Source: Lysinibacillus mangiferihumi (GTDB taxonomy: Bacteria > Bacillota > Bacilli > Bacillales_A > Planococcaceae). From it: DNA of 64,000 nucleotides. Position numbers and translations under genes: made by a program. The notes below the pieces were generated by a model. The model saw nothing but the letters and a program-made list of their open reading frames with translations, had not been told where the DNA came from and made no database searches. The stretch is taken from assembly GCF_003049665.1 (NCBI RefSeq), contig NZ_PYWM01000012.1:1-64000 (forward strand). Reading direction: 5' to 3'. Of the stretch, positions 15,665-18,759 are shown piece by piece (position 1 is the stretch's first letter; every line of letters starts with the position of its first letter).

Positions 15665-17332
15665 TTATACTTCCATAATAATTGGTAAAATCATTGGACG
15701 ACGTTTTGTTTTCTCAAATAAATAAGGTCCTAAAACATCAGTGATTTCATTTTTAAGTTCAGTCCATTGAGGTGTTTTACCTTGGATGGTTTCATTTAAA
15801 TGACGATTTAGCATTTTTTGTGCTTCGTTAATCATTGTGCCAGACTCACGCATATAGACAAATCCTCGTGAAATAATATCAGGCCCTGAAACGATTTTTT
15901 GGTTTTCCATATCAACGCTGACAACAACAATTACTAAACCTTCTTCAGAAAGGATACGACGATCACGTAACACAATATTACCGATGTCTCCAATACCATT
16001 ACCATCAATATAGACATCACCAGAAGGGATGCGTCCTGCAACATGTGCTTCATTTGCACTTAATGCCAGAACATCACCGTTTTCCATCACAAAAGTATTT
16101 TCCAGTGGAACATCACAATCTTCTGCTAAATGTGTATGCATTTTTAGCATACGGAATTCACCGTGAATAGGCATAAAGAATTTTGGTTTCATCAGTCGTA
16201 GCATAAGCTTTTGTTCTTCTTGTGAACCGTGACCAGAAGTATGGATATTATTTAATGCACCGTGAATAACTTCTGCGCCAGCACGGAACAGTAAATTGAT
16301 AATTTTATTTACGCTAACCGTATTACCTGGTACTGGTGAAGAAGAGAAGATAACTGTATCGCCAGGCTGGATTTGAATTTGACGGTGTGTACCATTGGCA
16401 ATACGAGATAATGCTGCCATTGGTTCACCTTGCGAGCCTGTACATAAAATCATTACTTCATTGGCAGGTAAACGGTTAATGCTTTGCGCATCAATAAAAG
16501 TATCTTTTGGTGCGTTGATGTAGCCTAGTTCACGGCCGATTGTAATGGCATTATCCATAGATCGACCGAATACAGCGATTTTTCGTCCGTATTTAATGGC
16601 AGCATCTGTTGCTTGTTGTAAGCGGTGAATATTGGATGCAAATGTTGCGAAAATAATACGACTATCAACCTTGCGGAAGATTTCATCGATACTTTTCCCA
16701 ACTGTACGTTCAGACATTGTGAAATTTGGTTTTTCAGCATTCGTACTATCAGATAATAGGCAAAGAACGCCATCACGTCCAATTTCAGCCATTTTTGTTA
16801 AGTTTGCAGGCTCTCCTACAGGTGTAAAGTCGAATTTAAAGTCACCTGTGTGCACGATATTGCCAGGAGGCGTTTTTACGACGATACCGTAAGCATCTGG
16901 AATACTATGCGTTGTTCTAAAGAAGCTGACAGATGTCTTTCTAAATTTAATAATATCTTCTTCTTTAATTTCGATTAGTTTTGTTGTACGTAGTAAACCA
17001 TGCTCTTCTAGTTTATTGCGCAATAAGCCAAGTGCAAGCTTACCTCCATAAACAGGAACATTTACTTGACGTAGTAAATAAGGGATACCACCAATATGGT
17101 CTTCGTGTCCGTGCGTAATAAATAGCCCTTTAATTTTATCTACGTTTCGTACTAAATACGTGTAATCTGGAATAACATAGTCAATTCCAAGTAAATCGTC
17201 TTCTGGAAATTTTATACCGGCATCAATCAAGATGATTTCATCTTGAAATTGAACACCGTAAGTATTTTTGCCGATTTCGCCCAGTCCGCCGAGCGCGAAA
17301 ACAGCTGCTTGGTCATTTTTAACAAACTTCAT
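15665..17332 (-). CDS. rnjA: Ribonuclease J1
   Basis: 555 residues, metallo-beta-lactamase/beta-CASP ribonuclease with both endonuclease and 5'-3' exonuclease activity, central to mRNA turnover and rRNA maturation (family knowledge). The zinc motif HGHEDH is at residues 74-79; further metal or phosphate ligands are in VHTGDFKFD and [10 protein letters not shown]. Length and sequence match RNase J1 rather than J2. It follows rpoY by five bases in one leftward operon, as in B. subtilis (ykzG-ykqC). Confidence 0.96.
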
Positions 17333-17337
17333 GTTTG

Positions 17338-17547
17338 TTAAATTTCCTCCAAGACGAAGTTCGGACTTGCTTGTTCGTACTCTAAATAGTTACCTTCAAG
17401 CAGTTGAATGAACTCAATGTTGTAATGACGGTCTTGTAACTTTTGACGTACTTCACGTTCTGAAGCAGCTTCAAGGTATAGACTTTTAGTGTTTTCGCGA
17501 ACTGGAATCTCATGTGCTTTTTCTTGATAATAAACTTTGTAAATCAT
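17338..17547 (-). CDS. rpoY: RNA polymerase epsilon subunit RpoY
   Basis: 69 residues beginning [19 protein letters not shown], with [21 protein letters not shown]: the DUF1447/YkzG family, a small accessory subunit of gram-positive RNA polymerase. ATG 17547 has AAAGGAGAG at good spacing; the frame is open upstream but those starts have no ribosome site. Always found next to rnjA in Bacilli, as here. Confidence 0.93.
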
Positions 17548-17793
17548 AGTTTGCTCTCCTTTGATTGCGTACATTATTATTGCACATTTGGCTATTACCA
17601 CACACGTACTACAAGAAAAAATCGCGAATTTCTAGTATACTTTAGACGAATAAAGAAATGAGCGTTTGAATTTCTTGTATCTCAATACTTTAATCTTGCA
17701 CTTTTCATGAAAAGCAATGAGACAGTGGTTGCGCATAGTCAAATGAATGCATTTCCTTTATATTATCACGCAGCTACTCTAAAATAAAGAAAA

Positions 17794-17814
17794 GCCCTTC
17801 AAATAATGAAGGGC
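17794..17814 (-). terminator. Terminator of the small cationic peptide gene
   Basis: GCCCTTCA and TGAAGGGC with a five-base loop; leftward it is followed by TTTTC and a T-rich stretch. It begins six bases after the stop codon of the peptide gene. Confidence 0.85.
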
Positions 17815-17819
17815 AAATG

Positions 17820-17891
17820 TTAGGCAATTGATTTTTTTCCGAGTACGCCACGAAGTCGCTTCAACAATTTTCGCTTTAGTTTCTTCAGCAT
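17820..17891 (-). CDS. 23-residue cationic amphipathic peptide
   Basis: A short ORF starting MLKKLKRKLLKRLRG and ending in a Lys-Lys-Ser-Ile-Ala tail. Of 23 residues seven are Lys and three Arg, with Leu spaced every three to four positions, so it would form a positively charged amphipathic helix. AAGGAG stands nine bases before the ATG, TTTACA-17-TATAAT lies just upstream and a strong terminator follows, making a complete transcription unit. I do not recognise a family. It could be membrane-active, nucleic-acid binding or ribosome-associated; not decidable from sequence. Confidence 0.65.
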   Translation of the reverse strand: MLKKLKRKLLKRLRGVLGKKSIA

Positions 17892-17912
17892 GGCACATCA
17901 CTCCTTAGGATC

Positions 17913-17941
17913 ATTATAATTAAAAACAATGCCTGTGTAAA
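17913..17941 (-). promoter_or_regulatory. Promoter of the small cationic peptide gene
   Basis: Leftward -35 TTTACA (17936-17941), exactly 17 bases, -10 TATAAT (17913-17918). The predicted transcript start falls at about the Shine-Dalgarno, giving a very short leader. Confidence 0.75.
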
Positions 17942-17988
17942 GGATTTAGCCTTTGCAATATCATACATAAAAAGAGAGGGATTATAGG

Positions 17989-18759
17989 ATGAAAAAAATT
18001 TTATTTTTTGATGTAGATGGGACGCTTTATAACAGTGAAAAAGTAATGCCTGCTTCTGCCAAAGAAGCGCTATTGGAAGCACGTCGTAAAGGGTATGAGC
18101 TTGCAATAGCTACTGGACGTGCACCATTTATGATTGAACCATTGCTAGAAGAGCTTGATATTAATACGTATGTGACCTTTAATGGACAGTATGTTGTTTA
18201 TCAAGGCGAGGTTGTCTACGCAAATGGTGTGGAAAAGGAAGAATTAGCGAAAATTATTGCCTTTGGAGAAGCGCGCAATGAACCCGTTGTTTTTTTAGAT
18301 GACAAGCGAATGATTGCGTCAGTTGGAGGGCATAACATGGTATCCGAAAGTTTAAATACATTAAAATACCCGTACCCAGAATTAGACTCATCTTATTATA
18401 TGCAGCACGATGTTTATCAAACACTAATCTTTATGGAAGAAAAAGATGAACATTTGTATTATGAGGCATTTCCAAATGTCCAGTTCGTGCGTTGGCATGA
18501 ATATTCTTGTGATATTTTACCTAAAGGAGGTTCCAAGGCTGCTGGAATCGAAAAAGTGCTCGCGAAAATGGGTTTAACGTTAGAGGATGCCATTGCTTTT
18601 GGTGATGGTATGAATGATATTGAAATGTTAGAGGCTGTTGGTACGAGTGTGGCAATGGGAAATGGACATGAAAAAGTAAAGGCGGTCGCGACACATATTA
18701 CCGATCACGTAGATGCAGACGGACTCGCAAAAGCGATGCGCTATTTAAAAATTATTTAA
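17989..18759 (+). CDS. ykrA: Cof-type HAD-IIB phosphatase YkrA
   Basis: 256 residues. HAD motif I is FFDVDGT with D8 nucleophile and D10; motif II ATGRA around 41; motif IV GDGMND at residues 205-210; a C2B cap lies between. This subfamily dephosphorylates sugar phosphates and similar metabolites in the cytoplasm; the substrate is not known. Position next to rpoY and before def matches B. subtilis ykrA. GAGAGGG precedes the ATG. Divergent from the small peptide gene. Confidence 0.88.
   Translation: MKKILFFDVDGTLYNSEKVMPASAKEALLEARRKGYELAIATGRAPFMIEPLLEELDINTYVTFNGQYVVYQGEVVYANGVEKEELAKIIAFGEARNEPVVFLDDKRMIASVGGHNMVSESLNTLKYPYPELDSSYYMQHDVYQTLIFMEEKDEHLYYEAFPNVQFVRWHEYSCDILPKGGSKAAGIEKVLAKMGLTLEDAIAFGDGMNDIEMLEAVGTSVAMGNGHEKVKAVATHITDHVDADGLAKAMRYLKII

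Follow-up and report, generated by a model that had tools for sequence, protein, structure and literature searches.

A conserved 23-codon gene upstream of rpoY in Bacilli encodes a cationic peptide that may work with the transcription and RNA-decay machinery

Microproteins of the SpoVM type sit on membranes as one leaderless amphipathic helix of about the same length as the peptide described here, SpoVM itself being sporulation-specific. The very small basic ribosomal proteins eL41 and bTHX likewise resemble the peptide in that each forms a single short and very basic helix. Attenuator leader peptides share with it the order of a short open reading frame (ORF), a terminator and then an operon. 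SR1P is a 39-aa Bacillales protein that acts in RNA decay, where it promotes the interaction of GapA with RNase J1 and thereby raises RNase J1 activity (PMC8152036). SR1P is thus an earlier case of a very small protein from Bacillales that targets RNase J1. It resembles our peptide in its tiny size, its restriction to Bacillales, its short transcript and its fixed genomic place, while its 39 residues and its origin from another RNA, the dual-function SR1, set it apart by description from a 23-residue peptide at rpoY–rnjA. For the epsilon subunit encoded by rpoY, the site on RNA polymerase has been described, while its role was left open (PMC7722741).

The locus lies in a 64,000-nt stretch of Lysinibacillus mangiferihumi DNA (contig NZ_PYWM01000012.1, positions 1 to 64,000), which we refer to as the window. 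An initial annotation, made from the letters alone, had proposed that a TTTACA-17-TATAAT promoter, an AAGGAG, an ATG with 23 codons, a stop and a terminator follow each other within positions 17794–17941, and that 10 of the 23 encoded residues are Lys or Arg, giving a net charge of +10. Reading of the minus strand confirmed all of these elements base for base, and counting returned the same composition and charge. Pfam also agreed with the neighbours named there, rpoY–rnjA on one side and ykrA on the other (Table 1). The Pfam families themselves denote RNase J and a HAD hydrolase, and the names rnjA, RNase J1 and ykrA are assumed here in line with the initial annotation; similarly, the 16S rRNA tail used to calculate Shine-Dalgarno (SD) pairing is the sequence that we assume for it. 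When the L. mangiferihumi genome was searched with the peptide at E values up to 10, the ORF was the sole match and no second copy was found.

Table 1. Elements of the peptide locus and its neighbours on contig NZ_PYWM01000012.1
Feature	Position	Strand	Details and basis
ORF, 23 codons + TAA, MLKKLKRKLLKRLRGVLGKKSIA	17820..17891	-	ATG at 17891, TAA 17822-17820
Shine-Dalgarno AAGGAG inside AAGGAGTGAT, extended 16S rRNA tail match	17901..17906	-	sequence; pairing energy
Sigma-A-type promoter TTTACA-17-TATAAT	17913..17941	-	TTTACA 17941-17936, TATAAT 17918-17913, 11/12 consensus bases
Intrinsic terminator, 8-bp stem then T run	17794..17814	-	stem begins 5 nt past stop codon; GC-rich hairpin
Conserved block past terminator, extended -10-like TGATAATAT at 17760-17768	17718..17793	-	alignments; role inferred
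rpoY, RNA polymerase epsilon subunit, downstream, codirectional	17338..17547	-	PF07288, E 2.7e-30
rnjA, RNase J1 (names assumed)	15665..17332	-	PF22505 + PF17770 = RNase J
ykrA-like HAD hydrolase (name assumed), divergent upstream neighbour	17989..18759	+	PF08282, E 4e-63

Within the genus, 32 of 32 genomes matched the stretch, and the ORF was open and intact in all 30 loci read, two of the matching genomes having given no locus. A peptide profile (E up to 1) matched 144 of 151 genomes of the family and 18 of its 19 genera. A second profile matched 193 of 200 genomes drawn from the order, all of which belong to this same family and overlap the 151-genome set, and its misses were the same seven genomes. 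In a draw of 398 genomes from the class, 88 matched with a limit of E 0.1, and 39 of these belong to the same family as the window. The best place of the 49 matches outside this family lay just upstream of rpoY in 37 cases, and the other 12 were short partial matches with E > 0.01. These 12 were the class-level best matches away from rpoY, and with them a larger protein carrying the motif was rejected; this check covered the best match of each genome, and some genomes have weaker second matches. The peptide was thereby found in 15 numbered families by profile, the window's family included, and in a sixteenth (f52) by reading. A recognisable rpoY was present in 175 of the 398 class-draw genomes, of which the profile located the peptide in front of rpoY in 76 and reading added one, while 98 had none at the sensitivity of the profile used; hence, RpoY works without the peptide in these genomes.

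We further read 80 named loci (GTDB species), picked as the best 80 of at least 549 relatives by their likeness to B. subtilis-type RpoY. A relative of the peptide lay upstream of rpoY in 79 of these best 80, with 23 codons in 75 and with 25 codons and a different tail in four, the latter from Halalkalibacter, Halalkalibacterium and Bacillus suaedae. Near B. subtilis, both B. inaquosorum and B. tequilensis encode MLRKLRKKLRRQWNGMLRKKAIA. In total 317 loci were scored, and the 287 that carry the peptide represent 210 distinct contexts and 123 distinct peptides, with a length of 23 codons in 197 contexts and of 25–45 residues in the remainder. The scoring matrix for the named, class and 317-locus readings was built from peptides found earlier, and any start codon was translated as M in the class-locus and 317-locus readings.

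The peptide search alone, with one best place per genome and the genome G094 left out, put 143 of 143 family places no more than 1 kb upstream of rpoY and on the same strand. This is the unbiased count of the linkage, since the 210 contexts, in all of which rpoY follows downstream on the same strand (19–578 nt from the stop, median 183), include loci fetched for holding rpoY. Such a position, together with the predominant length of 23 residues, does not fit an identity with SR1P. Because an ORF of at least 40 codons on either strand lies wholly between the peptide unit and rpoY in 50 of the 210 contexts, we refrain from describing rpoY as the immediate neighbour throughout; in L007–L009 a 71-codon ORF on the opposite strand occupies this interval. 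A ykrA match was absent in 9 of 29 peptide loci, judged over a stretch of about 380–1030 nt upstream, and in 2 of 20 of another set, and 14 loci had both ykrA and rpoY in the stretch and no peptide was found there. As the linkage persists where ykrA is missing, the peptide gene is bound to rpoY rather than to ykrA. The initial annotation had named, as speculation, a membrane-active peptide, an RNA- or DNA-binding helper or a ribosome-associated factor as possible roles; the linkage to rpoY makes RNA metabolism the favoured field of function. In three of the six loci read from family f41 the ORF ends 19, 21 and 31 nt before rpoY (L314, L315 and L290), which leaves no room for a terminator and is an operon-like arrangement.

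The interval between the unit and rpoY holds a TATAAT in 87 of 207 cases, compared to 28 after shuffling. A promoter score of at least 10 was reached by 50 of these intervals (5 shuffled) and a score of at least 9 by 90 (38 shuffled). About 75 nt past the terminator are strongly conserved among the aligned Lysinibacillus loci listed, and the TGATAATAT part is common to the family; judged from the alignments, this block is probably rpoY's own promoter and leader. Three Lysinibacillus loci (L024, L028 and L029) have 429–578 nt between stop and rpoY, with a sequence unlike that of other species, as if inserted.

The pN/pS ratio among 178 distinct 23-codon sequences was 0.116 for 490 close pairs and 0.142 for 1284 wider pairs, and 0.17 inside the genus (18 sequences). 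For 127 nearest-neighbour pairs it was 0.154, with 166, 97 and 488 substitutions at codon positions 1, 2 and 3, respectively. The nonsynonymous fraction of these pairs was 0.35 compared to 0.726 (sd 0.014, 300 simulations) for a null that distributes these changes randomly and ignores tree structure. As a yardstick we used the first 50 codons of rpoY from the same genomes. The synonymous rate of the peptide gene relative to rpoY was 0.84 (bootstrap 0.69–1.00) in 25 Lysinibacillus and 0.91 in 105 pairs elsewhere, and pN/pS for peptide and rpoY was 0.16 and 0.15 in Lysinibacillus and 0.13 and 0.17 elsewhere. Since pN/pS is RpoY-like and synonymous sites change nearly like those of rpoY, it is the peptide sequence that selection maintains, with a strictness similar to that for RpoY. 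Codons 17–23 are nearly invariant in Lysinibacillus, which may reflect a local constraint at the RNA level there.

These comparisons show that the ORF codes for a protein and that purifying selection acts on its amino acids. The proposal of a genuine small-peptide gene missed by annotation is hence supported at the sequence level by conservation and purifying selection. An ORF that is unconserved while the surrounding DNA is conserved would have spoken against this proposal; instead, the ORF is kept while synonymous sites diverge. Losses within the range of the gene are also few. The 80 named loci (the best 80 of at least 549) contain one probable broken remnant, L189 of Cytobacillus horneckiae, where an in-frame stop precedes readable codons for the final ten residues and a terminator-like hairpin is retained.

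The initial annotation had further argued that random short ORFs rarely show such a complete set of expression signals. The signals are indeed present, but the number of motifs in the region stays within that of shuffled sequences (promoter-like, 6 versus 8.3, sd 2.7; terminator-like, 4 versus 2.4, sd 1.4). As the counts do not exceed the shuffles, the motifs by themselves prove little, and it is the complete set of genus matches (32/32) and open ORFs (30/30) together with peptide conservation across families that marks the ORF as more than chance. We scored the 210 contexts by simple scripts against mononucleotide shuffles. In 158 contexts the promoter score reached 9 or more out of 12 (23 shuffled), and the end of the -10 element falls 20–24 nt ahead of the start codon in 148. 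A terminator-like hairpin starts no more than 75 nt from the stop in 167 contexts, compared to 1–2 in three shuffles, and its stem starts 0–9 nt past the stop in 139, compared to 0 in each of three shuffles; the script found no terminator in 43. In the window, the SD duplex has a pairing energy of -12.5 kcal/mol, which 9 of 48 window ORFs surpass, while the median over the contexts is -12.5 kcal/mol versus -9.1 kcal/mol for rpoY, and an extended A[AG]GGAG(N)TGAT motif occurs in 123 contexts. Such signals predict strong expression of the peptide gene.

Apart from the start residue, the positions that vary least among the 110 distinct peptides of 23 residues are K20 (109), A23 (108), L5 (105), I22 (103) and L17 (100), and position 13 holds Trp in 54 peptides and Leu in 52. 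Net charge ranges from +6 to +13 over the 123 peptides, with a median of +9, a range that includes the +10 of the window's peptide, and many members lack acidic residues. If the peptide is helical, residues 2, 5, 9, 13, 16 and 17, which are hydrophobic, share one face and Lys/Arg occupy the rest. For residues 1–18, the hydrophobic moment of every one of the 123 peptides lies above that of shuffles with z > 1 (median 2.24). The peptide encoded in the window is by itself less striking, as 7% of shuffles reach its moment. We infer that the peptide would form one cationic amphipathic helix, and the hydrophobic moment predicts the kind of helix seen in SpoVM-like peptides. The near-consensus vegetative-type promoter, the high charge and the linkage to rpoY–rnjA nevertheless distinguish it from SpoVM. 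The tails differ by lineage: most lineages end in K-[ST]-I-A, whereas the Halalkalibacter group and f52 have an RLIEV-like tail, f42 has a longer one and f41 has [VI]PTT with 5–20 further residues. In f41, L290, L314 and L315 have peptides lengthened to 34–45 residues that carry the [VI]PTT motif. Since the tails differ in this way, the predicted N-terminal helix is the common core. In the main lineage, the K-x-I-A tail is about as conserved as the hydrophobic face.

Searches of NCBIfam and Pfam with four peptides gave no family at E up to 10, short queries limiting the sensitivity, and membership in a known protein family was rejected on this basis. The PDB returned nothing significant, with two chance-level matches at E 0.69 and 3.9; this result and the regular Leu face of the peptide separate it from eL41 and bTHX. 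For window positions 17500–18050, Rfam gave five matches with a limit of E 5, and none came near the gathering threshold. A 43-residue relative from f41 had two matches among 5.8 billion predicted proteins, one of them identical and neither named. Literature searches by peptide string, gene name and theme found no description in the sources within reach, supplements and most subscription papers being beyond it. A B. subtilis transcript or small-ORF table, e.g. the web server of PMC5521070, may hold an entry. We consider the peptide to represent a new family of microproteins, the general kind being known already. A gene constrained like rpoY in 16 families or more, among them the nearest relatives of B. 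subtilis, has no family model or description in the sources searched. It also illustrates that genes of deep conservation still escape annotation because of length cut-offs.

What the comparisons establish is a selected coding gene that is found in 16 or more families, precedes rpoY on the same strand and usually has its own promoter, SD and terminator. For its function we favour, at a probability of roughly one half, a trans-acting microprotein that would work with the transcription and RNA-decay machinery encoded next door. The very short gene would probably be transcribed constitutively and its product would act in trans. The hydrophobic face of the helix may bind a partner and the charge RNA or an acidic surface, so that the helix would lie into a component of the transcription or RNA-decay machinery. 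First candidates for this partner are RNA polymerase at the epsilon site, RNase J1 and the ribosome, and its identity is the least certain step. The neighbourhood and the operon-like arrangement in f41 suggest the RNA polymerase/RNase J1 machinery. Neighbourhood, however, differs from physical interaction and rpoY seems to own a promoter; moreover, the same peptide chemistry would suit an anionic membrane. A narrower version, which we put forward tentatively, is an unrecognised accessory peptide of the gene-expression machinery of Bacillales. Its 23-residue helix would bind to RNA polymerase-epsilon, RNase J1 or the ribosome and adjust transcription or RNA decay. Such a peptide could have been overlooked even around B. 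subtilis because it falls below annotation size and trypsin would shred it. The fixed place beside the genes for the epsilon subunit and RNase J1 raises the question of whether a dedicated peptide links or tunes transcription and RNA decay.

Rather unlikely in our view is a peptide of the membrane surface, whose helix would lie on the anionic inner leaflet and sense, scaffold or modulate there, the place at rpoY–rnjA being old synteny. A Leu/Trp face opposed to a Lys/Arg face, the charge of +6 to +13, the many members without any acidic residue and the near-even split of position 13 between Trp and Leu would all suit such a role. The linkage to rpoY, however, survives when the other neighbour changes and is operon-like in three f41 loci, and plain membrane binding would not need a K-x-I-A tail conserved like the hydrophobic face. 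This reading fits the chemistry equally well as the trans-acting microprotein, but not the linkage.

More doubtful still is a cis-acting leader peptide, in which the position of the ribosome on the ORF would control the terminator and thereby read-through into rpoY–rnjA. The close spacing of stop and stem, at 0–9 nt in most contexts and in none of the shuffled ones, is consistent with this mechanism, as a terminating ribosome could cover the stem, and rpoY follows on the same strand in every context. Several points argue against it. A probable rpoY promoter lies past the terminator, as indicated by the excess of TATAAT and of scores of at least 10, though at a score of at least 9 the excess is only 90 versus 38. 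The script finds no terminator in 43 contexts, half of the f41 loci read offer no room for one, and in three Lysinibacillus loci the distance to rpoY extends to 429–578 nt. Furthermore, transcription in B. subtilis runs ahead of translation. Conserved codons or a C-terminal arrest motif would be a mark of leader peptides; here, synonymous codons vary, and so do the last residues between lineages (IA, RLIEV, VPTT and more), whereas K-x-I-A is conserved in the main lineage and codons 17–23 scarcely change in Lysinibacillus. Selection on the amino acids of the whole peptide, the probable separate promoter of rpoY and the missing terminator in some lineages set the peptide apart from attenuator leaders.

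The seven family genomes without a match comprise both of g9, four of eight of g10 and one of three of g7. In the four g10 loci (L071, L301, L302 and L303), promoter and terminator persist as judged by eye, and they enclose a different, apparently non-coding sequence in place of the ORF. Since these members of the family lack it, the peptide is unlikely to be indispensable, and the retention of promoter and terminator without the ORF indicates that the unit may have a second role besides making the peptide. That the RNA, as a small RNA or transcriptional insulator, is the functional product and the ORF incidental or secondary is nonetheless very improbable. Besides the g10 loci, the folding of the window transcript, which is better than that of shuffles (z -2.68, terminator included), and the almost invariant codons 17–23 with a synonymous rate slightly below that of rpoY in Lysinibacillus point in this direction. 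Against it, Rfam yields no family above threshold, and synonymous positions vary almost as fast as in rpoY while amino acids do not, which disfavours a non-coding RNA as main product. A chance ORF in conserved intergenic DNA, with which the promoter and terminator counts of the region would agree, is refuted by the 123 distinct peptides, the third-position excess, the pN/pS of 0.12–0.17 and the linkage of every family place checked to rpoY.

A few minor observations concern sequences around these loci. A small hairpin, TATTAGC...GCTAATA, lies between promoter and terminator in L071, L302 and L303 of g10, and these loci possibly encode a residual or new small RNA. The plus strand of the conserved block past the terminator in the window contains one open frame of 26 codons (17707–17787). 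No convincing peptide was found in the loci read from the rpoY-bearing families f4, f9, f16, f26, f34, f40, f45, f46, f47 and f49 and in one of f8. In L295 of family f59, a 27-residue basic ORF with an SD-like site lies upstream of rpoY; it scores below the peptide family and may be a distant relative or chance.
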